A stretch of 64,000 nucleotides of DNA from an uncultured Prevotellaceae bacterium (lineage in GTDB: Bacteria; Bacteroidota; Bacteroidia; Bacteroidales; Bacteroidaceae), in contig CAMHNI010000004.1 of the NCBI GenBank assembly GCA_946186505.1, positions 1-64,000 of the forward strand. The letters run 5' to 3'. The notes beneath the pieces are model-generated. The model had not been told where the DNA came from. It ran no database searches and worked only from the letters and a program-made list of their open reading frames with translations. Below, piece after piece: positions 48,884-64,000 of this stretch. Each line of letters opens with the position of its first letter. The first letter of the stretch is position 1. Both the position numbers and the translations under genes were made by a program.

Positions 48884-48915
48884 TTTGGAATGTTCAATAA
48901 TTCTTTTTATCTTTG
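48884..48915 (+). promoter_or_regulatory. Promoter of the motor/cytoskeleton island
   Basis: TTTG at 48884-48887, 20 nt, TATCTTTG at 48908-48915: a textbook Bacteroidetes promoter. It is the only strong promoter seen before the ten co-directional genes from 49239 to 61977. Confidence 0.8.
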
Positions 48916-49238: not shown

Positions 49239-50501
49239 ATGAAGAAGTATGGTTTGGCGGTAATAGCAGCAATACTTTTAATAGGAACCTTTAGCATTAT
49301 TTTAAGTGGATGTGACATAAATACAGTTGGCGACCCTCATTTTAATGCAGATGGTACTTTGGCGGATTCGACGGAATTAGTTACTTTGAAGCCGAGCGCT
49401 CCTGCAAAGATCAAATTCTATGTTGAGGTGTCAGGTAGCATGAATGGTTTTTTTAGAGCCAATAAGGCTACAAATTTCAAAAAAGATGTGTGGCAGGTTC
49501 TTAGTTATTATTCTGCTATAGCCCCTGAAATAACGATTCTTACCAATGACGGTAATATGGGAACCAGTTACACCCAATCGCAATTCCAGACCATGATGAA
49601 TACAGGAGCATTTGTAAGTACGGCATCAACAAGGGTACCGGATATGCTAGAATCTATTTTCAATAACCTCAACACAGAAAATGGAGAGGTTGCAGTTTTG
49701 ATTTCAGATATGAAATACAGTCCAGTTGGTTTAGCTGCACCAGAAGTTTTGCTGAGCCAGTATAGCACAGACATCAGCGAAAAACTTGGCAGACAAAAGA
49801 AAGCTGTTTGCCTAATAGGTGCGATTTCTGACTATTTGGACAAAAAAGGCACTGTGATGACTGACAAATCGCCATATTATTTCTTTGTCATAGGAAATGG
49901 TGAGCAAGTGGCATTTATGCGAAACGGCATTTCTACGATGCTGGAAAATAACAAGCGATACATTGATAATATTGAGAGTGGTTTTGACTATGGAGTACCT
50001 ACATGTTCTTTTGGCATTCCTGACAACTGCTGGCAGTTGAATGAAACGACCCCGACTTTTGTAGGATTTGACGAGTCTGCTAATGACACATGTACGATAA
50101 AGATGGAAGTCCATCTTGAAGGCTATCGGTGGATTGTAGCATCAGAGCAGTATTTCAAAAACGCATTTAAGATTAAAGCTCTCTATGGCTCGAACGTGGA
50201 AGTTGGTAAGGTGGATTTTAACATTAAGAATATAACAGACAAAGAACTTGTTCGCACTGCTACCGCTATTGCAGAAATAAAAATTTTCAATATGGCTATG
50301 GATTCCGAGGTTCTTGAATGGACATTAGAACTCCCTGATACAGACTATACCCTTTTCAGTCCATACTTTGATGGAGCTATCAGTGAAGCAGACGTCACAA
50401 AGTCATACTCTGTAGCAGATTTTGTAAAAGGAATATTTTATGGTGGCGTTGTAAACAAGACATTAAAGCCCAATTACATATTAATCTCTAAAAACTCATA
50501 A
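49239..50501 (+). CDS. vWA-like lipoprotein of the motor island
   Basis: 420 residues. Start at the ATG at 49239 rather than the TTG at 49230. The lipoprotein signal AVIAAILLIGTFSIILSGC puts the lipidated Cys at 25, so it is envelope anchored. FYVEVSGSMNGFF resembles a von Willebrand A MIDAS (DxSxS) strand with Glu in place of Asp; a second vWA-like strand VAVLISDMKYSP carries the later Asp, and KKAVCLIGAISDYLDKKG follows. The C-terminal half is a beta-rich domain of unknown kind. First gene of the operon, with the next gene 3 bp away. Probably an external or periplasmic sensor or adaptor (inference). Confidence 0.75.
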   Translation: MKKYGLAVIAAILLIGTFSIILSGCDINTVGDPHFNADGTLADSTELVTLKPSAPAKIKFYVEVSGSMNGFFRANKATNFKKDVWQVLSYYSAIAPEITILTNDGNMGTSYTQSQFQTMMNTGAFVSTASTRVPDMLESIFNNLNTENGEVAVLISDMKYSPVGLAAPEVLLSQYSTDISEKLGRQKKAVCLIGAISDYLDKKGTVMTDKSPYYFFVIGNGEQVAFMRNGISTMLENNKRYIDNIESGFDYGVPTCSFGIPDNCWQLNETTPTFVGFDESANDTCTIKMEVHLEGYRWIVASEQYFKNAFKIKALYGSNVEVGKVDFNIKNITDKELVRTATAIAEIKIFNMAMDSEVLEWTLELPDTDYTLFSPYFDGAISEADVTKSYSVADFVKGIFYGGVVNKTLKPNYILISKNS

Positions 50502-50504
50502 TGT

Positions 50505-50948
50505 ATGAAATTATTAAAGCTATATTGTTGGATTGCTGGCACAATGGCCGATTTCGCGAAGCCTTTTTCAGGAAACAAGGCTCTTTATAATCAAGCCAAA
50601 GGGTTTTGGAGCAAGTTAGAGAACTCTTCCTTGGTTATTTTTCTTATCTTTTTGGTTTTAGGCATTGCATGGGCCGCCTATTACTACACATCTTACAATA
50701 ACAATCCTGGCCGTCATTATACACCTAAGCACTGGATTCTTATGCTTCTCGTTACTGTTGTCGTTACCTTCCTCGTGACACTCGGCTTTGAGTATTTAGC
50801 CGTAGAGCCAAAAATCAACGGAGCATTCTTGCTTGAAGTTAAGATAGCTATTGCTAATGCACTTTACGCAGCATTAGCATATCTTTTTACCTCTATCATT
50901 TGGTGTAATACATTACCGACGAACGCATACAGGATGTTTAAATTTTGA
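50505..50948 (+). CDS. Small multi-helix membrane protein of the motor island
   Basis: 147 residues, no known family. Three probable transmembrane helices: SLVIFLIFLVLGIAWAAYYY, WILMLLVTVVVTFLVTLGFE, and a weaker AIANALYAALAYLFTSIIW. The N-terminal 40 residues are basic and likely cytosolic. It lies between the lipoprotein and tubulin-like genes with 3-6 bp gaps. It may recruit the cytosolic filament proteins to the membrane (inference). Confidence 0.7.
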   Translation: MKLLKLYCWIAGTMADFAKPFSGNKALYNQAKGFWSKLENSSLVIFLIFLVLGIAWAAYYYTSYNNNPGRHYTPKHWILMLLVTVVVTFLVTLGFEYLAVEPKINGAFLLEVKIAIANALYAALAYLFTSIIWCNTLPTNAYRMFKF

Positions 50949-50954
50949 ACGATT

Positions 50955-52352
50955 ATGAAGAAAGTATTCGTATTTTGCATCGGAGGAACAGGAATCCGTG
51001 TAATGAAAAGCATAACGATGCTTATGGCTGGAGGTATGAGTACCAATGGATATACTGTTGTGCCAGTTATTCTTGATCCGCATCTGGATCTTGAAGAAAA
51101 GAAGAATTTGCATTCGTTGATTAACGACTACAAAACTATATATAAACAAAGCATTAATAATGGAACGTCCACTTTGAATCATCTTGACGGATTCTTTAGT
51201 TCAGAGATGCGAACCCTTAAAGATTTAAACAATCAACAAAATGACACACAGGAGGTTGTAGGTAGCAAGGAACAATTCCGTTCATACATTGATGTTTCAA
51301 ATCTGGGGACAAGAGATATCAACAACTATCTTGTCGAGACTCTGTTCTCCACTAAGAATCTGAACAACCCTTTGTCTGTAGGGTTCAAGGGGAACCCCAA
51401 CGTAGGAACCGTCGTTTTAGGCGACATGATTGAAGGTGCGGATTGGTTCAAGGCTTTTAAACTACATTGTGAGAAAGATGACCGCGTATTTATCATTAGT
51501 TCCATCTTTGGTGGAACAGGAGCATCTGGATATCCTCTCCTTGAAAAGAAAATCCGTGGAACGAACAACCAACCAACAGTAAAGAATGCCCTAATGGGCG
51601 CCATTACGGTCTTGCCCTATTTTGGTCTGAAAGACCCGTCTTCATCTGGTAGTGATATTGATTCGACTAACTTCTACACTAAGACGAAAGCAGCATTGGC
51701 TTACTATCAAAACACTGTGCAATCTGACTATCTTTACTACGTTGGAGAGAAAACACTTCGTCAGGTTTATGAGAATGATGAACAGAAACAAGAAGATACT
51801 GCCAATTTCATTGAATTGGTGGCAGCATCAGCATTGTTTGATTTTCTTACAAGAGAAAGGCCAGAACGTCGTCAATATATGACAAGAGCCATTGAGGATG
51901 ACAAAGAATCCATGTCTTTACCATCTTTGGGAGATGGCTACAAAGATATAGTCAAATCCGTAGCTGACTACATGATTCTACGACAGTTAGTCGAGCATTT
52001 GAGTGAAGAGCCCTTTTTCCCTCTTTCAAAAGATCGTGGGTTGAACAGTTCTTTCTATAAAGATTCTGCGTTCTTATCACTGAAACGCTTTACTGATGTA
52101 TACTTCAAATGGTATCACGAACTGGCAACGAACAACCGCGCCTTTGCACCACTACATTACGATAATCCACGTATGATGTCTGGATTTATAAAGCATATGA
52201 ACCTTGATGCTAAAGACGATTCATATTACCTTCTTGAGATGATTAAAGCAAGCAATGCCTATAAAGCAAAAGACCATAGCAACAAATTCAGATTTTTCCT
52301 GCAATTTGCCTATGACGCTATCAATCACTATACAAAGAAAATTTACATATAA
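50955..52352 (+). CDS. Tubulin/FtsZ-like GTPase of the motor island
   Basis: 465 residues. The N-terminal FVFCIGGTGIRVMKSI (residues 5-20) is the Rossmann entry of tubulin-like proteins. SSIFGGTGASGYPLL (G186-G192) is the tubulin/FtsZ signature loop GGGTG(S/T)G with one change, contacting GTP phosphates. It belongs with divergent FtsZ-like/Tubulin_2 families found in operons with actin-fold and vWA proteins and proposed to remodel membranes. No TubZ-type DNA partner or FtsZ C-terminal tail is seen. Ends 2 bp before the actin-like gene. Confidence 0.8.
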   Translation: MKKVFVFCIGGTGIRVMKSITMLMAGGMSTNGYTVVPVILDPHLDLEEKKNLHSLINDYKTIYKQSINNGTSTLNHLDGFFSSEMRTLKDLNNQQNDTQEVVGSKEQFRSYIDVSNLGTRDINNYLVETLFSTKNLNNPLSVGFKGNPNVGTVVLGDMIEGADWFKAFKLHCEKDDRVFIISSIFGGTGASGYPLLEKKIRGTNNQPTVKNALMGAITVLPYFGLKDPSSSGSDIDSTNFYTKTKAALAYYQNTVQSDYLYYVGEKTLRQVYENDEQKQEDTANFIELVAASALFDFLTRERPERRQYMTRAIEDDKESMSLPSLGDGYKDIVKSVADYMILRQLVEHLSEEPFFPLSKDRGLNSSFYKDSAFLSLKRFTDVYFKWYHELATNNRAFAPLHYDNPRMMSGFIKHMNLDAKDDSYYLLEMIKASNAYKAKDHSNKFRFFLQFAYDAINHYTKKIYI

Positions 52353-52354
52353 TT

Positions 52355-55300
52355 ATGCCAAGAATAGATTTAAATATAGTCGATAGAGGAGCCCAAGGAA
52401 CATCATGGACGGCAGACAGTATTGCTCTGACCGCAGAAAGTCTTGATGAGGTAATGGAACAAAAAACCGATAACAGCGGTGCTTTAAACTCCTTGCCCAC
52501 ACCTTTTGCACGTTTCTTTGTTGCAAAAGAAGCATTCCGCCGCTTGCTGGCAGAAAACCTCAATAGCAATAATGAGGCAGGATTTGCCTATAGTCAAATG
52601 GTATCGGATATCCTCGATGTATATGAACTCCTCTTTAACCTCACATTCCATATGAACAACTCTTGGAAACGTGGTGAAAGGTTGGAGCTTCGAGAATGGA
52701 AGAGTCAGGAGAATCTGGCAATAATCAAAGCTAAAATGCCTGTATTCTACAATTCAATAGAAGAGTATTTCAATACGGACATCAAGGAAGACAAACTCTT
52801 TTTCCTTGTGTTTTCTGAAAACGGTAAAGAGGTATTGCTTGCTTGTAGTTCTCCATTTACTGGCTTTGTGACTCCCCCAGACATGGATAAGTCTATGGCA
52901 AAGATTGATGGTGTTGCTACCCTTGTATTTGCTGGCGAACAATACAAGGATTTGCATATCAGGAGGAAATCCGGTGGTGAATACTTCCGCGATGTTAAGC
53001 CTTTTAGCGAAAGGGAAGCTGAATTCAAGAACTATATGTTCAATACTTTGTTTGGCTCCGACGATGTAGATGGCAGATTCAAGGAGATAAAAGAATTTGT
53101 CAGAAGCTATAAATTGGATTCCGACATCCGTAGTGACTACAAGCAGAAACTTGCACCTGTAAAAACAGACCAAAACGATGATTTGGTAATCAATGGTCTT
53201 CGCATTCAAGAACTCAACGAAATTGACGTAAACAATTTCTTTACAGATACGCTGATTAGACTACCTTACAGAATATCAAAGGACAATTTCATAGCCGTTA
53301 CATATCAGAATGATTTCTCAGGGAGAGACTATGATTATCTCCTGCCCTTCAAACCAGAGGTGATGGGGCTGTTTGATGATGGTCATCTGGATGCAGACAT
53401 ACATATCAACCGAAACTCTGTAACTGCTATTCTCCGCTATAATAATAAAGAATATACGAAAGAGTATGCTTTAGATCCATTCCAGGCAGGACAAGGCCGA
53501 ATCGTGGATCTTCAGGGATGTAAGATCAGCTTTGACTTAGGAATTTTCCCAAATATCTTATCTCATAAAACACAAGAGAACAACTATTTCAAGGTACTTG
53601 TTGTTGGTGCTGATGAAGACCCAGAAGCCCCAAACTTCAATATCGACCAGATTTCGTTATCATTCTTTAAGAATGGAGAAGACGGATTTGAGCATATTAA
53701 AGAAGTTACTGCTGAGCAAAATGCTTCATTTGGTACTTGGCCTGCAGTTGTACGCTCTCGACAAAAAACAGAATTGGAAGAAAGCGGCACGAAATTCTAT
53801 GAATTGTACAACACCACTTTTGACCTTATTGAGGTGAAAGTGTTGAATTTCACGGGGCTCATTAAACCTGTATGGCGTAGAAGCCAAGCAACGAACGAGA
53901 CATATACTTATGCCATCGACCTTGGAACGTCTAACACGTTTATGTCTCGTTGTAAGAATGGTCCGGACGGCCAGCCAGACTTAAGCCGTAAACCAGAACT
54001 GTTCAAGATGGAGAAACCTATGGTCAGTTTCATGCATGAGATACCCAACGACCAGCAATTCTCTTTGACGAGAAGAATAGAAGATTCTATATTCGATAAA
54101 GCAAAAAATAGAATCAAAACAGAGTTCTTGCCTGCAATCATTGATGGTACTGATTACAAGTTCCCCATCCGTACTGCAATTTGCGGTATTCATGACCGTT
54201 CAAAGAAACCAAAATTATTTGACAATCACAACATAGCCTTCTTCTATGAAAAGTTGATGGCTAATGAAGACCAAGAAGTCCACACCGACATCAAATGGGA
54301 TAAGAACGAGGATTTGTTACGTATATTTGTTCGTGAACTATTGCTGATTATCAAATGTGACATTTTACAACGCAATGGTGACTTGAATCGCACAAAACTT
54401 GTATGGTTTAGCCCATTAAGTTTCTCTGGCACGGAAAAGGAACTGTATCAAGACATTTGGACTAATGAACCTAAAGAAGTGCTTTTCATACAGAAGGAAC
54501 AAATAAAACAATACTCTGAATCTGAGGCTCCATATTACTACTACAAGAAAATGGACTATATAGTAGACTCCGATGCTGTGACAGTGATTGACATTGGAGG
54601 CGGTTCTACAGATTTCGTCTATTTCAAAGACAATAAGCCAGTTGTAGCCAATTCCGTTCATTTTGGATGTGATGTTCTATGGGAAAATGGTTTCAATGCC
54701 TTTGGTAATGCAAGGGATAACGGCATCTTTAAACGCTATGCTGACACCATACGTTTCGAGAGGAAAGACCTTGAAGACTTGAATGAGAGTTTCAAGAATG
54801 TTGATGCTGTCAAAACGAAAGACATTATCAATTTCTGGCTTGGAAATGAACAGTACTGTGGTATCATTAAATTGTTACGGGCTGACTTCAAACCAGTTTT
54901 CGTTTATCACTTCACGTCAATTCTGTTTTATATGGCAAGCATGTATAAGGACAATGGACTTGCAGCCCCGCGCACAGTCGTGTTTAGCGGCAATGGCAGT
55001 AAGTATATTGATAGCTTCATTTCAACAGAATCTGAAGTATTGGAAAAGATTATCAATACTGTGTTTGGCAAGGTTTTTGGAGGTACGCATAACATACACC
55101 TGAAACTTCCTGAAGAACGCAAGGAATCTACTTGTTACGGTGGTCTTTACCGTGAGCCATCTGCTCCTAAGGTTAGAAATGTAGTATATCAAGGCGATAA
55201 TACGAGAAACTATCAGAAAGTGTCAGACATTACTTCCAACTTTGATTCTCTTAAGGTTGCCCTTCTCGCGAAGTATAAAGATTTGAACACTTTGTACAAG

Positions 55301-55513
55301 TCTGTCATTGACTTATTGAAACAAGAGAAGATTATTGATAGTGCAGCCAATACGAAGAAGTATCTTGATGCTGCTACATCTGACATGGGCATACCCCTTA
55401 GTAACTACTACAAAACACAAGTTAAGGAGAAATATAGTGAAGAGGTGGTTTACAATGATTCGGTATTCTTTATCCCTATTATTAATCGTGTGTTTGAAAT
55501 GACAAAACTGTAA
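52355..55513 (+). CDS. Hsp70/actin-fold ATPase (SrfB-like) with large N-terminal extension
   Basis: 1052 residues. The first 515 have no recognised domain. The actin/Hsp70 ATPase core follows: phosphate-1 YAIDLGTSNTFMS (D522), phosphate-2 VIDIGGGSTDFVYF (D746), and adenosine motif VVFSGNGSKYID (from 876). Size and layout recall SrfB-like proteins, which occur beside tubulin-like and vWA proteins in other bacteria. No DnaK substrate-binding domain is present. With the preceding tubulin-like GTPase it makes a two-cytoskeleton pair. Ends 1 bp before the MotA-like gene. Confidence 0.8.
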   Translation: MPRIDLNIVDRGAQGTSWTADSIALTAESLDEVMEQKTDNSGALNSLPTPFARFFVAKEAFRRLLAENLNSNNEAGFAYSQMVSDILDVYELLFNLTFHMNNSWKRGERLELREWKSQENLAIIKAKMPVFYNSIEEYFNTDIKEDKLFFLVFSENGKEVLLACSSPFTGFVTPPDMDKSMAKIDGVATLVFAGEQYKDLHIRRKSGGEYFRDVKPFSEREAEFKNYMFNTLFGSDDVDGRFKEIKEFVRSYKLDSDIRSDYKQKLAPVKTDQNDDLVINGLRIQELNEIDVNNFFTDTLIRLPYRISKDNFIAVTYQNDFSGRDYDYLLPFKPEVMGLFDDGHLDADIHINRNSVTAILRYNNKEYTKEYALDPFQAGQGRIVDLQGCKISFDLGIFPNILSHKTQENNYFKVLVVGADEDPEAPNFNIDQISLSFFKNGEDGFEHIKEVTAEQNASFGTWPAVVRSRQKTELEESGTKFYELYNTTFDLIEVKVLNFTGLIKPVWRRSQATNETYTYAIDLGTSNTFMSRCKNGPDGQPDLSRKPELFKMEKPMVSFMHEIPNDQQFSLTRRIEDSIFDKAKNRIKTEFLPAIIDGTDYKFPIRTAICGIHDRSKKPKLFDNHNIAFFYEKLMANEDQEVHTDIKWDKNEDLLRIFVRELLLIIKCDILQRNGDLNRTKLVWFSPLSFSGTEKELYQDIWTNEPKEVLFIQKEQIKQYSESEAPYYYYKKMDYIVDSDAVTVIDIGGGSTDFVYFKDNKPVVANSVHFGCDVLWENGFNAFGNARDNGIFKRYADTIRFERKDLEDLNESFKNVDAVKTKDIINFWLGNEQYCGIIKLLRADFKPVFVYHFTSILFYMASMYKDNGLAAPRTVVFSGNGSKYIDSFISTESEVLEKIINTVFGKVFGGTHNIHLKLPEERKESTCYGGLYREPSAPKVRNVVYQGDNTRNYQKVSDITSNFDSLKVALLAKYKDLNTLYKSVIDLLKQEKIIDSAANTKKYLDAATSDMGIPLSNYYKTQVKEKYSEEVVYNDSVFFIPIINRVFEMTKL

Positions 55514-55514
55514 T

Positions 55515-57101
55515 ATGAACACTTTTGTAGGCACCCTTATATTTTCTGCTTTTGTATTCGTCATATTTCTAGGTCTTCAGATGAAGTATTTTTTTGAGAC
55601 CAAGAAATACAGGCGATTGTTTAACGATTTCTTCAAGAAGAATTCGGAATATATGACGTTCCGCAAACAGATTGGGGACGAGGCAATCACTCAGCTAAGC
55701 CGTGTAGGAGTAGAAGGAAGCGACCTTAATGTGCTCATAGACGAGATTAATCACTATGTGGCAAAAACTAAGGGGACAACCGACTTTTCTGTTATTCAGA
55801 ATAAAGTTGAGCGTAAACTAAATATGCGGTATGACCAGTCTGTAGCTAAACTGGCGTTTCCCACATACCTTGGTCTGATGGGAACATTCCTTGGCGTATT
55901 TTTGGGAATACTTATGTTTATTCTTGGATTTAATGGTGCAGGCGACGTGTCAGACGAATCCATTAAGAATCTCTTGACAGGTGTTCTTGTCTCAATGTCA
56001 ACTAGCTTATTTGGTCTTCTATTTACAACGATTAACAATGCTAAAGCCGGAGAAGCAAGAAAGAATATAGAAGAGGATAAAAACGAGTTTTATGATTTCG
56101 TTCAAACGGAACTGATGCCATCACTCGATGTCTCAATGGTACTTGCAATTACCAAACTGCATGAAACTGTTGACCGTTTTGAACCTGCTTTTGACAGAGT
56201 GATAAACCGATTCCAAGACACCTTTGACCGTTGTACCAAAGCCTTTGGCGACAGCTTTGAGCAAAATGTTACAGCAGTTGCCAATGCTGTTGATACTATG
56301 GGCAAGAATATGGATAAGATTAACGAGAATATCAGTTTGCAGAAACAACTGCTATCGACTCTGAGAAGTGACGAAATTGTCAAGGGTTTGGACAAATACA
56401 TTGAGGCAGCCAATCACTTCGTTAGTATCACTAAATCTCTTAATAAGTTTGAAGAGGCTCGGAGAATGTTATTGGCAGCGACACAGGAAGCTATAAATAT
56501 CCAAAATGCATATTCAGAATCTCTTAAAGTTCCAAGAGAGGTGGCTGTCAGAATCAACCAAATTCTTGACAGAATCAAGAATTTCGAGGAGAGTGTCCAG
56601 CGTCTTGGTCCTCAACTTGATAGACGAGAGATTCTTGGCAACGATGTAGTTAATGCAATCCATGACCAGATAAAGGGCATTTCTAAGAAGGGAAAGATTG
56701 CTGATAAGTATCTTGAAATGGCAGATGGTAAACTCGAAGACTTATTTACAGCACAGACGGCTGTCATTGAGAGTATGAACAAACGATACAAAGAAGCTTT
56801 GGAAGGCCACATTGATGGATTTGAAGCAATGATTAAACGCCAGACCGAAGAACTCGAAACAAGGCACAAGGAGTTTATGAAGGCAATGGAGGAAAAGCTT
56901 AATATTGGAGAAATACAAAAAGACTTTGCATCGCTTAGGAAATTGAATGATATTGCTACAGAATTGTCTAAGTTGACTGAAGACCCAGTAAAAGCTGATG
57001 AACTGAATGAAATCCTCCAGAAGATCCAGGATGAAATTGGTAAAATTGAAGTAAATGAAAACCGTGGTGGTGGCGGGTTGTTTGGATTCGGTAGAAGATG
57101 A
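55515..57101 (+). CDS. MotA/ZorA-like proton-channel subunit with long coiled-coil tail
   Basis: 528 residues. The first helix is LIFSAFVFVIFLGLQM; two central helices, LAFPTYLGLMGTFLGVFLGI (from 113) and LLTGVLVSMSTSLFGLLFTT (about 150-172), carry the Pro/Gly/Thr pattern of MotA/TolQ/ExbB channels. From about residue 185 to 510 it is charged heptad-like coiled coil, and it ends in GGGGLFGFGRR. The long cytosolic tail is the feature that sets ZorA of Zorya defence apart from MotA and ExbB. Paired with the MotB-like gene 6 bp downstream. Confidence 0.85.
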   Translation: MNTFVGTLIFSAFVFVIFLGLQMKYFFETKKYRRLFNDFFKKNSEYMTFRKQIGDEAITQLSRVGVEGSDLNVLIDEINHYVAKTKGTTDFSVIQNKVERKLNMRYDQSVAKLAFPTYLGLMGTFLGVFLGILMFILGFNGAGDVSDESIKNLLTGVLVSMSTSLFGLLFTTINNAKAGEARKNIEEDKNEFYDFVQTELMPSLDVSMVLAITKLHETVDRFEPAFDRVINRFQDTFDRCTKAFGDSFEQNVTAVANAVDTMGKNMDKINENISLQKQLLSTLRSDEIVKGLDKYIEAANHFVSITKSLNKFEEARRMLLAATQEAINIQNAYSESLKVPREVAVRINQILDRIKNFEESVQRLGPQLDRREILGNDVVNAIHDQIKGISKKGKIADKYLEMADGKLEDLFTAQTAVIESMNKRYKEALEGHIDGFEAMIKRQTEELETRHKEFMKAMEEKLNIGEIQKDFASLRKLNDIATELSKLTEDPVKADELNEILQKIQDEIGKIEVNENRGGGGLFGFGRR

Positions 57102-57107
57102 TTGAAT

Positions 57108-57881
57108 ATGGACGGGAAAAACAATAGTTCTTTTTGGCCTAGCTATGTGGATATTATGACAACGTTGTTTGCCATAACACTTATTTTATTTGCAGTCTCA
57201 TTCAGCCGTTTTAAAATCAAGGAAAAGCAGCTACAAAGCCTTGTTGATGAATATGAGAATATCATCACGGTCTACTCAACAGTTGGTTCAATAGACTCTA
57301 CTCGTTATTTTGGTTACAACGAGCAATACCTTAAACACCTTTTTACTGTTGATGTCGAATACCAGCTGAAAGAGTATCATATTGACAAATTAGAGCTTGA
57401 TGTTAAAGACCCTGTTAGCGCCAATAACAAAAGAGACAGTATTGTGGTAGCTGGAGAGATAATCAAGAACACCATTCTCCAATTAGAGAACTCAGACTCC
57501 ATAAGAAACAACATAAAGTTCTTGGTAGTTATCGAAGGCCAATCTTCAAAGATTCCATTTTTTGAAAGCGATTGGAAGAACAATTATACGCTTTCTTATC
57601 TGAGAGCCCAGTTTCTGAATAATTTCTGGAAAGAACATGGTATAGACCTGTCCGCAATCCCGAAATGTGAACTTATCATATCTGGTAGCGGTGAAGGAGG
57701 GGTTCCCCGTATAGAGCCTAATGAAGATGAGTTGCATAAACTAGCGTCTGACAACAAAGAGTATAGAACACTGTGGGAAGAAGAAGAAAGAAAGAATCAA
57801 CGCTTCTTGATACACATAGTACCAGTTATTGGAAACATCGATGTAACGAAAGAAAAAATTAACAAACTCCAAGGTAAATAG
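57108..57881 (+). CDS. MotB/ZorB-like stator subunit with OmpA-type domain
   Basis: 257 residues from the ATG at 57108 (a TTG at 57102 is possible). The N-terminal SSFWPSYVDIMTTLFAITLI has Trp then Asp (D15) at the start of a single transmembrane helix, the arrangement of the ion-binding Asp in MotB/ZorB. Residues about 110-240 look like an OmpA/MotB peptidoglycan-binding domain: VVIEGQSSKIPFF, then LSYLRAQFLNNFW, SGSGEGGVP and NQRFLIHIVPVI. It should form a 5:2-type channel with the preceding protein. Confidence 0.82.
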   Translation: MDGKNNSSFWPSYVDIMTTLFAITLILFAVSFSRFKIKEKQLQSLVDEYENIITVYSTVGSIDSTRYFGYNEQYLKHLFTVDVEYQLKEYHIDKLELDVKDPVSANNKRDSIVVAGEIIKNTILQLENSDSIRNNIKFLVVIEGQSSKIPFFESDWKNNYTLSYLRAQFLNNFWKEHGIDLSAIPKCELIISGSGEGGVPRIEPNEDELHKLASDNKEYRTLWEEEERKNQRFLIHIVPVIGNIDVTKEKINKLQGK

Positions 57882-57884
57882 GTC

Positions 57885-59282
57885 ATGACGGAGTCTGTAA
57901 TGGATATCAATAATGAATATGAAAAGCTTTTTGGCAGGGCAAAGTCCATTAATCTTTTCGATTCTGACGAAGAGTACGAAAATCTTCGGCAGTATATAAT
58001 CAGTCAGCCAAATGATTACATAAAGAGCCGTGTCCTTCCTTTTAATGGAATCGAATTGACACCATACAATGAATATATATGGAAAGGGGAAATAGAATCA
58101 GCCACCCATGACGGTAGACATGTATTCTACATAAAACAGAGTAAACCTTTTTGTAAGGCTGCATGCTATTTTGACGCATGCAAAGGCACCATTGTTTTCC
58201 TCCGATATAGCTATATTGTTAATTCAAATTCATATAGCAACGATTTCTCCCTTTTGTCGGGCAGAAAAAAGCTCTTAATTCACAAGAGCTGTCAGGACAA
58301 ACAAGGTAGATACTTAACAGAGAATGTCAGATGTTCTTCACCATTGGTAACAGCATCGTATGTTCTCGGACGTAAGGCAGACTTATCCGAATGGTGTGAC
58401 GAGAAAGGGAAATCTATCGTTACCTATTATCCAGAGTTGGCAAGATTGCAGGCACTAGAAAGAAAGAAGAAAGAGACAGAAAAAGAAGAACAGAACAAAG
58501 GGAGTGTGTTGTTGGGGGTGCTTAATGGTATCGCTAATTACTTGACTAAAAGAGCTGCTAATAGGCACATTTTCTATATTGAAGAAGATGGGGTTTGTAG
58601 TGCTTCCGGCTATTTGGAAGAAGACTCTAAACAATTCTTCATCAAAAAAGGTAGTTTAGTCTCTAAGGAGTCTGACATAATATACGCATCCTCTCAATCA
58701 GGTAAAGCAAGACTGCGGTTTCTTGATAAGGCTTGTGTCTTGAAGACTCATTATTATTGCGTGTCAAAGGACGCTAAATGTCGTTCTGCATCAGCGGCAG
58801 CTTGCTATGTGTTAGGTCGTAAAGCTGATTTTACATCTTGGAAGGATGATAAAGGAAGATCTTTGGAAGAAGTCTATCCGAATCGATTCTTTACCCCACA
58901 AAAAGAATCTTCTCAATTGTCGCTTCCTTTTCCTTTAGATGAACCTCCACTCTTCCATATCGTGAAAACGGATGATGCCAAAAGATACTGTCGAGCTTCA
59001 GGAACTTACGATAGTGTTGGAAAACAATTTCTTATTCTGAAAGATAGTATTTTGTCATTAGATGTGTCATCATCATATCGTTATACTGCAGCAGATTACA
59101 AGCGACAGAAGTTTATCAAGTTGAACTGTGTCAAAAAGTCAAATGGCTTTGTGATGAAACGTGATGCTTTGTGTGACTCCCCAAGTGCAGCGGCGAGTTT
59201 CGTACTTGGCAGGTCTGCTAATGGCTGGTTAGAATGGAAGGATGAATCTAACAGAACACTTAAAGAGGTTTATAACCATTAG
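57885..59282 (+). CDS. Triple-DUF4357 protein
   Basis: 465 residues with three copies of the DUF4357 fold, each ending in a conserved signature: SYVLGRKADLSEWCDEKG (about residue 170), CYVLGRKADFTSWKDDKGRS (about 310), SFVLGRSANGWLEWKDESN (near the C-terminus). The repeats are separated by a Lys/Glu-rich linker and a short hydrophobic stretch (SVLLGVLNGIANYLTK). DUF4357 is otherwise found as an accessory domain on nucleases and methyltransferases, probably for nucleic-acid recognition. It lies between motor and nuclease genes, so it could be the cytosolic DNA-sensing part (inference). Confidence 0.78.
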   Translation: MTESVMDINNEYEKLFGRAKSINLFDSDEEYENLRQYIISQPNDYIKSRVLPFNGIELTPYNEYIWKGEIESATHDGRHVFYIKQSKPFCKAACYFDACKGTIVFLRYSYIVNSNSYSNDFSLLSGRKKLLIHKSCQDKQGRYLTENVRCSSPLVTASYVLGRKADLSEWCDEKGKSIVTYYPELARLQALERKKKETEKEEQNKGSVLLGVLNGIANYLTKRAANRHIFYIEEDGVCSASGYLEEDSKQFFIKKGSLVSKESDIIYASSQSGKARLRFLDKACVLKTHYYCVSKDAKCRSASAAACYVLGRKADFTSWKDDKGRSLEEVYPNRFFTPQKESSQLSLPFPLDEPPLFHIVKTDDAKRYCRASGTYDSVGKQFLILKDSILSLDVSSSYRYTAADYKRQKFIKLNCVKKSNGFVMKRDALCDSPSAAASFVLGRSANGWLEWKDESNRTLKEVYNH

Positions 59283-59287
59283 TCGCC

Positions 59288-60217
59288 ATGAAGAGGTTTA
59301 TAATTGGATTTATCATTACAATTCTATTTCTTGCATTTGCCATTGGTCAATGCAATGACACGACAGAAGAAGACGCTGGCGAGATGGTATCCCTATATTC
59401 CTACACCGAAGAGAAAGATAAAGGGGAGAAGTATGTTGTTGCACTCACACAAGAGACAGAAGAAAAGGGTGAGAAAGATATTATGTCTGAGAAAGAAGTT
59501 GCAACAGAAAGAGACGATGTTGATGTTGACGGAATTGATGTCAAAGGAATCGTTCTCTTACCATCAAACGTTCCCAGCTTGTTTTTATCTCGCACTGCAT
59601 ATTGCTTATCATACAATAAAGAAACACGCTGTCCAAATTGGGTTGCTTGGAATTTGACAGCTGACCATGTAGATGGAGAATGGGGCAGGTCAAACGACTA
59701 TCGGGAGGATTATAAAGTACCTGCGCCAAGGGCAACCAATGAAGATTATAGGGGGAGTTCGTGGTCAAGAGGACACATGTGCCCCGCAGGTGACTGCAAA
59801 TGGGATGCGAATGCAATGAGCGAGACCTTCTTGTTGTCAAACATGTGTCCTCAAGATAGAAACCTCAATAGTGGTTTATGGAATAGAATTGAGATGGACT
59901 GTCGCAAATGGGCACAAAGGTATGGTAGCGTATATATCGTATGCGGCCCATTGTTATACAACAAAGAACATGAAACTATTGGCATGAACAAGGTTGTCGT
60001 TCCAGAGGCTTTTTTCAAGGTGGTACTATGCTTACAGGGACAATCAAAAGCAATTGGTTTCATTGTCAAGAATAATGCAGGAACAAAAAAGAAAGACCAA
60101 TACGTAAATACAATTGATGAAGTAGAACGTCTAACTGGCTATGATTTCTTTTCTTCGCTGCCTGACAGTATTGAGGAGAAAGTTGAGGCTTATTCAAGTT
60201 TAGATGATTGGAGGTAA
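59288..60217 (+). CDS. Membrane-anchored or exported DNA/RNA non-specific endonuclease (NUC1 family)
   Basis: 309 residues. N-terminal IIGFIITILFLAFAIG is a signal anchor or signal peptide followed by an acidic linker of about 60 residues. The ββα-metal nuclease core is clear: WSRGHMCPAGDCKW with catalytic His163 (family DRGH with Ser for Asp), LSNMCPQDRNLNSGLWNRIE with the metal-binding Asn, and VYIVCGPLL. The active site would be outside the cytoplasm unless the anchor is inverted. It follows the DUF4357 gene by 5 bp and is the likeliest effector of the island. Confidence 0.85.
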   Translation: MKRFIIGFIITILFLAFAIGQCNDTTEEDAGEMVSLYSYTEEKDKGEKYVVALTQETEEKGEKDIMSEKEVATERDDVDVDGIDVKGIVLLPSNVPSLFLSRTAYCLSYNKETRCPNWVAWNLTADHVDGEWGRSNDYREDYKVPAPRATNEDYRGSSWSRGHMCPAGDCKWDANAMSETFLLSNMCPQDRNLNSGLWNRIEMDCRKWAQRYGSVYIVCGPLLYNKEHETIGMNKVVVPEAFFKVVLCLQGQSKAIGFIVKNNAGTKKKDQYVNTIDEVERLTGYDFFSSLPDSIEEKVEAYSSLDDWR

Positions 60218-60223
60218 TGATTT

Positions 60224-60544
60224 ATGAAGTTGGATAAGAATCATTTAACGAGTGGAATTGTTGGGGTAATCATGGGAGCAAGCTCAGTCATGGGAATCAA
60301 TGCCTTGTCTGACAATAAAAACGTGATTTCGTATTTCTATGATACTATGCCGCATAGGGGCAACGCATCGATGTACGACAGAGTAGAGTCTGATGCAGAC
60401 GGCGATGTGTTCATAACGACAAAGGGAAGGAAATATCACAGAAGAGGCTGTTACATTCTTAGGCAGTCGGATGAAGTGAAGCAGGCAACACATTCAGACG
60501 TTATTGGCGTTGGCTATGAGCCGTGTAAAAAATGCAAACCGTGA
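60224..60544 (+). CDS. Membrane-anchored Ada-like zinc-ribbon protein
   Basis: 106 residues. A hydrophobic segment (SGIVGVIMGASSVMGINAL) near the start, then a C-terminal metal-binding motif: FITTKGRKYHRRGCYIL ... GVGYEPCKKCKP, the pattern of the Ada-type Cys zinc-binding domain found beside secreted nucleases. It follows the nuclease by 6 bp, so it may assist the nuclease in binding DNA (inference). Confidence 0.72.
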   Translation: MKLDKNHLTSGIVGVIMGASSVMGINALSDNKNVISYFYDTMPHRGNASMYDRVESDADGDVFITTKGRKYHRRGCYILRQSDEVKQATHSDVIGVGYEPCKKCKP

Positions 60545-60567
60545 TTTGCTTATTTTGATATTTGCTG

Positions 60568-61977
60568 ATGAAACAGGTCTATCTCATTCTTGCAGTCTTG
60601 ATGCTGCTTTGCCTTATGCCGATGCCGTATGGCTATTTCCAGCTGGTACGGTTTGTGGCGATGGTGGTGTTTGGCTTGATGGCATACCAATACTACATGA
60701 GTCAGAAAGCTATAGCATCGGTAGTATTCGGAGTTCTGGCAGTGCTGTTCCAACCCATCTACAAGATTGCGTTGGGACGGGCGATGTGGAATGTTGTTGA
60801 CGTGTTGGTCGCAGTGTTGCTGATAGGGTTGTTCGTGTTAGAGAAGCGACTTGAGAAGAAAACGACAGTTGGCTATCAACAGCTGCCGCCACATGATCAG
60901 GTAAAACTTGAAAACAACGAGATAGAGTTTAAACTGGCAGGCAAACTATCGCCCAAGGAATTGGTATATGTTGCCAGCGAAGAGGATAAAGCTCTGACAG
61001 AATTGTTTGAGAAACGACCAGAGGTGCTGGAGGGCTGGGGACAGATGATAGGATTCCACATTGTCTATCTGCCGCTACTGATGAAGAGACTGAAGGATAA
61101 GCGAGTGTTGCAATACAGGGCACCTCATCTAAGCGACGCTGATTTGGATGATGTCGCGGTGGGGAATGACTTCATGCTTCAGTATCTGGAGAACCCTGCG
61201 GACAGAAAGAAGATAAAACAGGGATTCATCCGTACTGAGGACATTCATCGAGGAAGTGACGGTAAGGATAGGGCGACGAATCGATTCTATCCGTTGTCAT
61301 CGACGAGTGGTGAGCCATTGGCAGACCAACTGCACAGGATAGGCAAACAAATATCAGTCGAAAAAGCAAGATACGACAGGTATTTGGAAAGCAAAAACCA
61401 AAGTTATGAAGAATGGGGCGATGCCAATGATAATGAGCCACCTTCTGAATTGGGCTTTGGTTCGCAGAGTGATGAGGAGTCAACGGATGATCTGATGGAG
61501 GAGGTACGGGAGCGGATTGCGAAGTTGCGCCAACGGGGTATTGCAGAGTATCTGCTGGAGCAGTTGATTCACCCGGACAGTCGTCTGAGCCGGATGGTGA
61601 TTACCAAGGACTGGCGTATCGTTCTGCCCGACTACAACGAAATGGAAATCAAGATGGAACCTCTTGTAAAAGCCGTATATCTTTTGTTCTTGCATCATCC
61701 TGAAGGGATTATGTTTAAGCATCTTCCAGACTGTCGCGAGGAACTCACAGCGATATACCTCAAATTGAAACCTTCAGGTTTGAATGATAAGGCCTTGCAA
61801 AGTATTGAGGATGTGACGAACCCACTCCTGAACTCCATCAACGAGAAATGTGCGAGGATACGTGGGGCTTTTGTAGGGAAATTTGATAATCATATGGCTA
61901 AACATTATTATATAGATGGTAGACGTGGCGAGGCCAAGAAAATAGCATTAGACCGTTCGCTCGTTATCTGGGAATAA
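60568..61977 (+). CDS. DUF6804-like membrane protein with large cytosolic domain
   Basis: 469 residues from the ATG at 60568. Four hydrophobic helices in the first 95 residues (VYLILAVLMLLCLMPMPYGY, FVAMVVFGLMAYQYY, IASVVFGVLAVLFQPIYKIA, VVDVLVAVLLIGLFVLE) match the small DUF6804 membrane family. The rest is cytosolic: an Arg/Glu-rich middle and a conserved-looking tail (PLVKAVYLLFLHHPEGIMF, SINEKCARIRGAF, YYIDGRRGEAKKIALDR) shared by other Bacteroidetes island proteins. Last gene of the island; the right flanking palindrome follows 10 bp after the stop. Confidence 0.7.
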   Translation: MKQVYLILAVLMLLCLMPMPYGYFQLVRFVAMVVFGLMAYQYYMSQKAIASVVFGVLAVLFQPIYKIALGRAMWNVVDVLVAVLLIGLFVLEKRLEKKTTVGYQQLPPHDQVKLENNEIEFKLAGKLSPKELVYVASEEDKALTELFEKRPEVLEGWGQMIGFHIVYLPLLMKRLKDKRVLQYRAPHLSDADLDDVAVGNDFMLQYLENPADRKKIKQGFIRTEDIHRGSDGKDRATNRFYPLSSTSGEPLADQLHRIGKQISVEKARYDRYLESKNQSYEEWGDANDNEPPSELGFGSQSDEESTDDLMEEVRERIAKLRQRGIAEYLLEQLIHPDSRLSRMVITKDWRIVLPDYNEMEIKMEPLVKAVYLLFLHHPEGIMFKHLPDCREELTAIYLKLKPSGLNDKALQSIEDVTNPLLNSINEKCARIRGAFVGKFDNHMAKHYYIDGRRGEAKKIALDRSLVIWE

Positions 61978-62068: not shown

Positions 62069-62545
62069 ATGACAGACTACGAGTACATTTTACAGCAGGC
62101 AAGGAAGTTCCATTATACGAAGTGGGACGATGGAGAGTTGAGGAAGTGCGCGGAAATGCTTAAGGCATTGTCACGGCAAGAGTTGGTATTGCTCTACAAC
62201 AGCAAGTGGATAAGTGGGGAGAAGTTTCTAAAGGAAACCATCTTCCATCTTATGTTTAAGGAAAGAATTGAGGAAAGAGACAGGAAAATCAAGGAGATGA
62301 ATGTAGATGAGCTGATAGAGAATCTCAATGACGAAAATGGTTATGGGAAGTTCATCGTACTTGAAATGAAAGAACGTTATGACTCGTTGTGCGATGAAGA
62401 AAAAGTGAAGATTCTCGATACTTTGTCTGAAACTACCAAAGCAAATATGAGGTGGGCAGAGAGTAAGCGGAAACAGTTGAAGAATGACGAGAGAACAATA
62501 TGTCAGAACAAAGAAATTATAGTAGACGCGATTCACAATCAATAG
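62069..62545 (+). CDS. Small hypothetical protein upstream of dnaB
   Basis: 158 residues from the ATG at 62069; the frame upstream runs through the promoter palindrome and is not used. Helical, charged, no known domain: MTDYEYILQQARKFHYTKWD, LSRQELVLLYNSKWISGEK, then Lys/Glu-rich to the end. Its last 46 bp overlap the start of dnaB, so translation is likely coupled. Confidence 0.65.
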   Translation: MTDYEYILQQARKFHYTKWDDGELRKCAEMLKALSRQELVLLYNSKWISGEKFLKETIFHLMFKERIEERDRKIKEMNVDELIENLNDENGYGKFIVLEMKERYDSLCDEEKVKILDTLSETTKANMRWAESKRKQLKNDERTICQNKEIIVDAIHNQ

Positions 62546-64000
62546 ACCTCACGTATGGTCATTTAATGCCACAAGCGCCAGAGGTGGAGAAGGCTGTACT
62601 TGGTGCATTGATGATTGACAGGGATGCATACATGGAGGTTTGCAACCTGTTGCGGCCAGAGAGTTTCTATGAGCCCCGGAACCAAATGGTGTATGATGCC
62701 ATCGTACGTCTCAGTATGGATGACAACCCTGTAGATGTGCTGACGGTAACAGACAAGCTGGGGAAGATGGGGAAACTTGAGGAGATTGGTGGCCCCGTTT
62801 ATATTGTAGAACTGAGTTCGAAGGTGGCGACTTCTGCCAATATTTTGTATCATGCAAACATTGTGGCAGAGAAGTATCTGGCGCGACAGATGATAAGCTT
62901 TGTCAGTGTCATAGGCAGAAAAACCTTCGATGAGTCCTACGACATCAAGGATGTGGTGCAGGAAGCGGAAAGTACACTCTTTGAACTGACGCAGAAAAAC
63001 ATGAAGAAGGACTATTCCGTATTGGCACCAATAGTAGACAAAGCAATGGAAATGGTGAGGATTGCCCATTCCAACAAGGGGGGTACTACTGGTATTTCGA
63101 CGGGCTACTTCAAACTTGACGATATGACTTGCGGATGGCAGAACTCTGACCTCGTGATTATCGCAGGGCGTCCTGCGATGGGCAAGACGGCTTTTGCACT
63201 TTCTTTGGCAAAGAACATTGCGGCAGACCAGAAGATTCCTATGGCGTTCTTCTCATTAGAAATGTCGGATGTACAGTTGGCAAACCGATTGATGTCGAAT
63301 GCATGTAAGATAGACGGAAAGAAACTGTTGAGTGGACAGTTAGACAGGGAAGATTGGTTAAGGCTTGATAAGAAGTTGGGCATATTGGAAGACGCGCCAT
63401 TATATATAGATGATACAGAGGGACTCTCTGTCATGGATCTTAGGTCGAAGGCACGGCGACTGGTTAACGAGAAAGGAATAAAACTGATTATGATAGACTA
63501 TCTGCAACTGATGACTGCCAGCGGGATGAAGTATAATAGTCGCCAAGAGGAGGTGTCGTTGATTTCGCGTTCGCTGAAGGGACTGGCCAAAGAGTTGAAC
63601 ATCCCTGTTTTGGCATTAAGTCAGCTGAATCGTGGCGTTGAGGGACGTACAGGTGCCGAAGGGAAGCGCCCTCAGCTATCAGACCTCCGAGAGTCAGGAG
63701 CCATTGAGCAGGATGCAGATATGGTCATATTCTTGCATCGCCCAGAATACTATCACATCTTAAAGAGTGCTGACGGATCAATTGACTATCAAGGGAAAGC
63801 CGAGGTTATCATCTCAAAACATCGAAAAGGGGCAACTGGAATTATCATGATGAATTTTAAAGGTGAATATACACGCTTTGAGAATTATGATGACCCATTA
63901 GCTGGAATTCGCCTACCAACAGAAGGAGGAGAAATCAGAGGCTCTGTTGTTAATGGAGAGGATAATGGCATGATATTCTCTTCAGAAGAGTATGATCCAT
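62500..64000 (+). CDS. dnaB: Replicative DNA helicase DnaB, 3' part beyond the window
   Basis: Hexameric helicase of the replication fork. 500 residues are visible and no stop is reached. It starts MSEQRNYSRRDSQSIDLTYG; the N-terminal domain PQAPEVEKAVLGALMIDRDA is standard, Walker A is IIAGRPAMGKTAFALSLAKN (K229), then MAFFSLEMSDVQL, LIMIDYLQLMT (Walker B), ALSQLNRGVEGR and SDLRESGAIEQDADMVIFLH. It reads like the Bacteroidetes chromosomal DnaB rather than a phage one, without an intein in the visible part. Confidence 0.95.
   Translation, partial: MSEQRNYSRRDSQSIDLTYGHLMPQAPEVEKAVLGALMIDRDAYMEVCNLLRPESFYEPRNQMVYDAIVRLSMDDNPVDVLTVTDKLGKMGKLEEIGGPVYIVELSSKVATSANILYHANIVAEKYLARQMISFVSVIGRKTFDESYDIKDVVQEAESTLFELTQKNMKKDYSVLAPIVDKAMEMVRIAHSNKGGTTGISTGYFKLDDMTCGWQNSDLVIIAGRPAMGKTAFALSLAKNIAADQKIPMAFFSLEMSDVQLANRLMSNACKIDGKKLLSGQLDREDWLRLDKKLGILEDAPLYIDDTEGLSVMDLRSKARRLVNEKGIKLIMIDYLQLMTASGMKYNSRQEEVSLISRSLKGLAKELNIPVLALSQLNRGVEGRTGAEGKRPQLSDLRESGAIEQDADMVIFLHRPEYYHILKSADGSIDYQGKAEVIISKHRKGATGIIMMNFKGEYTRFENYDDPLAGIRLPTEGGEIRGSVVNGEDNGMIFSSEEYDP

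Follow-up and report, generated by a model that had tools for sequence, protein, structure and literature searches.

We analyzed a 64-kb stretch of contig CAMHNI010000004.1 (assembly GCA_946186505.1, positions 1–64,000; hereafter the window) and found in it an operon for a vWA-like lipoprotein, a tubulin-like protein, an actin-fold ATPase and a pair of motor proteins that profile comparison places, as families, nearest to ZorA and ZorB of the Zorya defense system. Judging from sequence, we give about an even chance to these proteins forming an ion-driven envelope machine, one whose likely role would be to protect the cell from the entry of phage or other DNA through activation of hydrolases close by.

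A six-gene core joins a motor pair to tubulin- and actin-like proteins

The original prediction for this DNA described a cluster of ten co-directional genes at 49239–61977. The cluster is real, and its ten genes, here called A to J, all lie on the + strand. The first six encode a vWA-like lipoprotein of 420 amino acids (aa) (A, 49239–50501), a small membrane protein of 147 aa with about three hydrophobic segments (B, 50505–50948), a tubulin/FtsZ-like protein of 465 aa (C, 50955–52352), an ATPase of 1052 aa with the actin/MreB/Hsp70 fold in its C-terminal half (D, 52355–55513), a MotA/ZorA-like channel subunit of 528 aa with three hydrophobic segments and a long helical C-terminal tail (E, 55515–57101), and a MotB/ZorB-like subunit of 257 aa (F, 57108–57881), which has a single transmembrane helix carrying D15 and an OmpA-like domain carrying R166 and N230.

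Scanning genome contigs with D yielded 14 close loci at 70–96% identity. The order A-B-C-D-E is kept in all of them (A is split in locus L017 and D in L023), and F and the following gene G are present in 13, the contig of L017 ending early. The nuclease gene H is found in 12: L017 ends, L025 is without H, and L018 has it upstream on the opposite strand. The conserved core is six genes, A to F, rather than the ten fixed genes first predicted; the DUF4357 and nuclease genes behind it are exchangeable, the zinc-ribbon gene I occurs in one close locus (L015), and the DUF6804 gene J holds its operon position in three (L015, L019 and L020; also in L031).

Querying with E alone retrieved, besides the window's own genome, six of 394 genomes of the phylum and 13 of 393 genomes of the order. 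In 13 of these 19 genomes, the tubulin and/or actin gene is adjacent to the motor pair. The 13 belong to the order, to other parts of the class and, in one case, to a lineage outside it; one of them, G710, corresponds by gene order to the genome of L018. Two more are at contig ends (L071, L074), and four have no such neighbors (L052, L075, L076, L079), two of these being the weakest matches. Because a search with E alone recovers tubulin and actin neighbors, we conclude that the motor and the tubulin/actin module belong together; as predicted, the vWA-like/tubulin/actin module and a ZorAB-like motor share one operon, and this arrangement recurs repeatedly, also outside the order.

Across the 68 loci examined, 61 have the tubulin, 53 have both tubulin and actin-fold genes, and 35 have both motor genes, 30 of these with tubulin or actin; since the loci were gathered by D, MotA or tubulin queries and labeled with profiles built on the same loci, these shares cannot be read as unbiased frequencies. 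The motor label (MotA or MotB, hence including L097, with MotB only) needs eight changes on a tree of 52 tubulins, at least five of them on well-supported branches, some placements being unsure on long branches (L105, L099, L083 and L037 among others). The tree omits the truncated, broken or unclear loci L017, L039, L051, L052, L079, L085, L087, L088, L091, L093 and L100 as well as the duplicates L003 and L067.

The core proteins belong to conserved families

C is tubulin-like, as predicted. Its T4 loop reads SIFGGTGASG, with the GGTG invariant among homologues, and PF00091 matches 28/28 members of its family and PF13809 20/28 (E ≤ 0.1); the window protein by itself reaches only 0.013 against PF00091. 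The assignment of D as an actin-fold ATPase was likewise borne out: both phosphate loops are invariant (D522, G524, T525, D746–G749 and D753 in 23/23 homologues), and MreB was matched by the family profile at 3.4e-6 and by Foldseek at 1.8e-8. A carries a signal helix (residues 3–28), a near-invariant ExSGSM motif and an Ig-like C-terminal domain, and is present in 14/14 close loci and 47/61 tubulin loci. It has no Pfam vWA match, its profile matched no vWA structure among solved structures, and Foldseek listed mainly Ig folds. We consider a vWA fold no more than probable for A.

As families, the motor proteins are nearest to ZorA and ZorB

Profile comparisons indicate that, as families, E and F are nearest to ZorA and ZorB. 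Among solved structures, the best match of the F profile, over nearly its full length, was the Shewanella type I ZorB (8VVN; 2.1e-14); 8QYD, which we take to be an E. coli-type ZorB, followed at 1.8e-7, while a MotB reached no better than 9.9e-4. The E profile reached ZorA of 8VVN at 2.9e-4, among numerous coiled-coil matches, which are probably compositional. In NCBIfam (E ≤ 0.01), ZorB1 matched 21/25 F homologues and ZorA_2 11/25 E homologues. PADLOC gave ZorB1 as the top model for the window F (5.2e-6), and the only PADLOC matches among the ten proteins at E ≤ 1 were ZorA/ZorB, PDC-S14, PDC-S57 and DUF3780. A search of a protein collection with the F profile returned 4095 proteins; those listed were mostly unnamed and were not used.

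F had been predicted to be a MotB-type protein. D15, the channel aspartate in its helix, is the same in 25/25 F homologues, as is R166 in the OmpA-like domain; N230 of that domain is likewise invariant. Both 8VVN and 8VVI are ZorAB structures, and D24 of ZorB is described in the same paper as crucial to Zorya defense (PMC11890865).

Hydrolases are exchanged in the slot behind MotB

Comparison of protein families across loci indicates that the gene position behind MotB is an interchangeable slot, a feature that is new here. The window has two slot genes. G (57885–59282, +) encodes a triple DUF4357 protein of 465 aa without a hydrophobic segment, predicted to be cytoplasmic. H (59288–60217, +) encodes an EXOG/EndoG-type (NUC1) nuclease of 309 aa with an N-terminal anchor or signal (residues 1–24, from hydropathy) and the motifs SRGH (with H163) and LNSGLWNRIE. 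The NUC1 assignment was already part of the prediction, and it stands: H matches the Pfam NUC1 family at 9.5e-56 and EXOG at 4.3e-35 and has the catalytic His and Asn, and the catalytic His of the RGH motif is kept in 16/17 aligned nucleases (the Arg two positions before is His in 7). H would probably face the periplasm. In the window clade, the DUF4357 gene lies behind MotB in 17/17 visible loci (the window, 13 close loci, L068, L101 and L102) and the nuclease is present in 15/17, with none in L025 and L068.

G diverges fastest of the eight genes compared, with a mean identity of 36.5% (14 loci) against 45.7% for H (12 loci), 59% for A and B, and 67–77% for C to F, these means leaving out L015 as a near copy. 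The matches of G to PDC-S14 and PDC-S57, two candidate families in PADLOC, fall mainly in its C-terminal DUF4357 part.

Beyond this clade, we compared 15 divergent motor operons in which tubulin or actin is present or the contig is cut, excluding L097 and the uncut loci L052, L075 and L076, which have neither gene. The next same-strand gene encodes a lipoprotein-like hydrolase in nine, with motifs present and the lipoboxes judged by eye: an aspartic protease in L031, L051, L069, L072, L074 and L077, a trypsin-like protease in L070 and L073, and an SNase in L071. A further SNase is encoded in both L073 and L074, and L049 has an SNase on the opposite strand. Ten proteins from nine loci, run against Pfam, all scored above the cut-off as aspartic proteases (L031, L072, L077, L094, L032), trypsin-like proteases (L070, L073) or SNases (L071, L073, L074); the aspartic protease calls in L051, L069 and L074 are based on our own profile and a DTGA motif. 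Aspartic proteases also occupy the corresponding place in the motor-less operons L032, L084 and L094.

The operon is patchily distributed and may have been transferred laterally

The tubulin was found in 23/393 genomes of the order and 13/394 of the phylum (own genome included), a patchy distribution. Within the genus (36 genomes with the window's own), the close form is in the own genome only, and eight others have a relative at 34–38% identity. Compared with G710, from another family, SecA is 59% identical, C 79%, D 71% and E 68%; compared with G737, SecA is 63%, C 76% and F 72%. Identities above that of SecA suggest lateral transfer of the operon. DnaB was not taken as a yardstick, because the window dnaB is a paralogue and the relatives' dnaB lies elsewhere, and a comparison of empty secA–dnaB sites was uninformative, the relatives' dnaB being on another contig or distant from secA. 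A tubulin 78% identical was listed for Phocaeicola vulgatus, a common gut bacterium.

More distant tubulin/actin pairs occur in mobile settings: on a mobilizable cyanobacterial plasmid, with a relaxase and an integrase (L104), and with a terminase (L105). At L104:4944–19473, the tubulin/actin operon lies beside the relaxase and tyrosine integrase genes, followed by a gene for a protein of 880 aa and by two genes that look TerD-like by eye; two TerD-like genes examined from L097 and L104 had no Pfam match. Plasmid records gave six relatives of the tubulin, all below 60% identity, one on a Prevotella replicon of 1.77 Mb and five cyanobacterial.

Carriage as phage cargo was considered and rejected. 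The tubulin had no match among 50,697 phage records. A relative is encoded in 5/68 pattern-matched stretches from IMG/VR, among which L101 and L102 hold the close form; since no phage hallmark was recognized in their fetched flanks, these two were not counted as viral evidence.

Neighborhood of the operon and of related motors

A PADLOC scan of the flanks covered 90/169 open reading frames of at least 190 aa at 22/33 loci, with no control set, and matched 157 models (E ≤ 1e-10); the members behind most of these matches were not traced, nor was the protein behind a PDC-S01 match of 1e-178. Because the scan had no control, we regard the defense-island argument as weak and claim no enrichment. 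At L024:810–4215, about 2.6 kb upstream of the operon, lie GajA (5.3e-199) and GajB (7.7e-174) of a Gabija system. A similar-looking pair of genes, encoding proteins of 353–356 and 836–837 aa, stands on different sides of the operon in L018 (17334–20908) and L101 (1803–5417), and the second gene of the L018 pair matched a NERD+UvrD candidate defense model at 8e-31.

Two of the motor pairs without tubulin or actin neighbors lie with other predicted conflict genes. At L076:6320–11422, a related MotAB pair lies between a TPR–DarT fusion, whose DarT-type part belongs to a family of single-stranded DNA ADP-ribosyltransferases, and an ADP-ribosylglycohydrolase, and is possibly another Zorya-like type of defense. 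At L075:7649–14636, the related pair is accompanied by a PP2C phosphatase, two vWA proteins and a kinase-like gene (by eye), a set that resembles what we take to be TerY-P type triads.

One match to what we take to be the Bacteroidetes-type promoter consensus, TTTG-N-TANNTTTG (48884–48915, +), lies 324 bp before gene A and is the sole + strand match past 39592. The window holds six matches to the pattern against 0.85 expected from shuffles, and a pattern match is in itself no evidence of function. The two last genes of the operon encode a small Cys-pair protein of 106 aa (I, 60224–60544, +), for which the predicted label of Ada-like found no support, and a DUF6804 membrane protein of 471 aa, an accessory (J, 60562–61977, +). 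The dnaB at 62500–63999 is a second, paralogous replicative helicase gene, its product being 66% identical to another copy (C16), and in L019 the operon is followed by other genes and then by the same small gene and dnaB as at the window end.

A proposed machine and competing explanations

In the machine we propose, damage to peptidoglycan or the envelope would be detected by lipoprotein A and by F through its OmpA-like domain. Ion flow through an E5F2 complex would turn the long E tail, which would act on C and D, and the nucleoside triphosphate-dependent assembly of these two would serve, at the inner membrane, as a platform or as a threshold switch. An effector would then collect at the breach or become active there; in the window this would be the nuclease H, probably facing the periplasm; G perhaps reads DNA, and an anchored slot hydrolase would act at the inner membrane. 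We infer an anti-phage role by analogy. That one slot takes both nucleases and proteases fits better with a system aimed at incoming DNA or at injection proteins than with quality control. More ambitiously, the operon may represent a new class of immune machine in Bacteroidota, in which a peptidoglycan-sensing rotary ion motor drives a cytoskeletal switch of tubulin and actin at the inner membrane and thereby sets interchangeable effectors of the periplasm (a NUC1 or SNase nuclease, an aspartic protease or a trypsin-like one) on phage DNA or injection proteins that are still outside the cytoplasm. We hold this version tentatively, at somewhat under an even chance.

A number of results weigh against the proposal. 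The window E scores below the curated ZorA cut-offs (32 vs 500, 29.5 vs 100 and 19.3 vs 190 bits), as does the window F below that of ZorB1 (13.3 vs 400). In NCBIfam, the top model for this F is MotD (3.9e-5), with ZorB1 only at 0.041, and among F homologues PRK09039-type models match up to 16/25 and MotD 11/25 (E ≤ 0.01). Run by itself against solved structures, F matched no ZorB; the peptidoglycan pocket of ZorB is retained in its Arg and N..R positions, and H186/T187 align with Q/S. None of ZorC–ZorG was detected among the ten proteins in the PADLOC scan. The predicted joining of two modules holds as a recurrent operon, but the core of vWA-like protein, small transmembrane protein, tubulin and actin is at many loci also motor-less, often followed by a signal-anchored coiled-coil protein, and two motor pairs do without tubulin and actin. 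No slot hydrolase was seen in 5/15 divergent motor operons (L047, L048, L050, L078, L099). Synteny beside defense genes in several genomes had been named as support for the original prediction; gene order is conserved, but nine flank proteins and one L076 gene, taken singly, disclosed one complete known defense system, the Gabija of L024, over the 22 loci. As to transfer, F (62%) and A (55%) show small or no excess over SecA (59%) in the comparison with G710, and D (64%) and E (63%) are at about the SecA level (63%) in that with G737; the operon itself sits between the secA region and the dnaB paralogue.

The main rival is envelope maintenance or membrane remodeling that involves no phage: tubulin and actin-fold filaments would give the inner membrane its shape or patrol it, force would pass from the motor to peptidoglycan, and the lipoproteins would be quality-control hydrolases. 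Remodeling was proposed by Makarova and Koonin for FtsZl1 operons with vWA and OmpA proteins (PMC2875224), aspartic and trypsin-like lipoproteins would suit proteostasis or envelope quality control, which also counts against our proposal, and in two Prevotella genomes a gene that looks ftsZ-like by eye is found close to the operon, on differing sides (L019:2279–3550; L020:19787–21073). Set against this, such patchiness (23/393 genomes) and likely exchange between families are unusual for maintenance, and quality control leaves unexplained why nucleases (NUC1, SNase) share the slot with proteases. On balance we find this rival rather unlikely, though a serious one. The proteins could also form a conflict system with another target, namely conjugation or plasmid entry, a rival's toxin or contractile injection, or the infected or damaged cell itself, killed by released hydrolases. 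Tubulin, HSP70 and vWA modules do appear in predicted nucleotide-dependent conflict systems (PMC7159879), which are resembled by the motor-less tubulin/actin operon at L036:9726–13511, followed by a ParA-like/GTPase protein and a trypsin-like protein. The slot hydrolases, however, have N-terminal hydrophobic segments or lipoboxes (by eye; for H by hydropathy) and so are probably not directly exposed to host DNA or to proteins of the cytoplasm, and we think this explanation improbable.

An ordinary stator or TonB/Tol-type energizer beside unrelated genes, an alternative that the original prediction had itself raised, would account for the MotA/MotB-type features and the OmpA-like domain. It is disfavored by both the model matches and the synteny: TolQ, GldL and MotA models match 1/25 E homologues each, E is not one of the two MotA_ExbB (PF01618) matches in the genome, which are found away from the operon (C72, C75), and the tubulin and actin neighbors recur, including outside the order. 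We give it hardly any credence.

Comparison with known systems

No paper describing this combination was found in a search of the open-access literature, outside of which most subscription papers lie, and the predicted novelty of the gene set stands within that scope. Should the proposed machine be real, it would link rotary stators as phage sensors, tubulin and actin homologues in one non-division operon, and periplasmic defense, and FtsZl1-type tubulins would gain a concrete, testable set of partners.

In FtsZl1 operons, too, a divergent FtsZ-like protein is accompanied by vWA genes and in some cases by genes of the OmpA family, and Bacteroides caccae is among the species aligned for FtsZl1; the partners named in the account of these operons are kinases and P-loop GTPases, and neither an actin-fold protein nor a MotA-type channel is among them, nor are exchanged hydrolases (PMC2875224). 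The ten window proteins had no Pfam match to a P-loop GTPase or protein kinase at E ≤ 1. The GTPase-centric conflict systems of Kaur et al. 2020 (PMC7159879) resemble the operon in joining GTPases with tubulin homologues, an HSP70 protein and extracellular vWA domains, for which a cytoskeleton-like assembly was proposed, but they are centered on GTPases with GAP1, and the main text of that paper has no mention of MotA/MotB. A DO-GTPase was not matched in the ten proteins, and a weak DO-GTPase1 match was seen in the distant L036 only. The Bat/MoxR–vWA proteins of Bacteroides differ in that A is without a Pfam vWA match and the ten proteins include no MoxR-type match.

For Zorya, it has been proposed that the peptidoglycan domain of ZorB senses phage-caused damage and that ion flow and the ZorA tail recruit nucleases (PMC11890865). 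The operon shares with it an inner-membrane MotAB-like pair, a long ZorA tail, the ion-carrying Asp of ZorB, an OmpA-like periplasmic domain and a nuclease partner. It differs in adding tubulin-like, actin-fold and vWA-like proteins, and in its slot hydrolases, which are anchored or have a lipobox and are proteases or nucleases, whereas the ZorA rod is described as recruiting cytoplasmic nucleases (PMC11890865). Since its scores lie below the curated cut-offs and the known effectors (ZorCD, ZorE or ZorFG) are not found here, we do not class it as Zorya, and place it near Zorya and the tubulin/vWA conflict operons.

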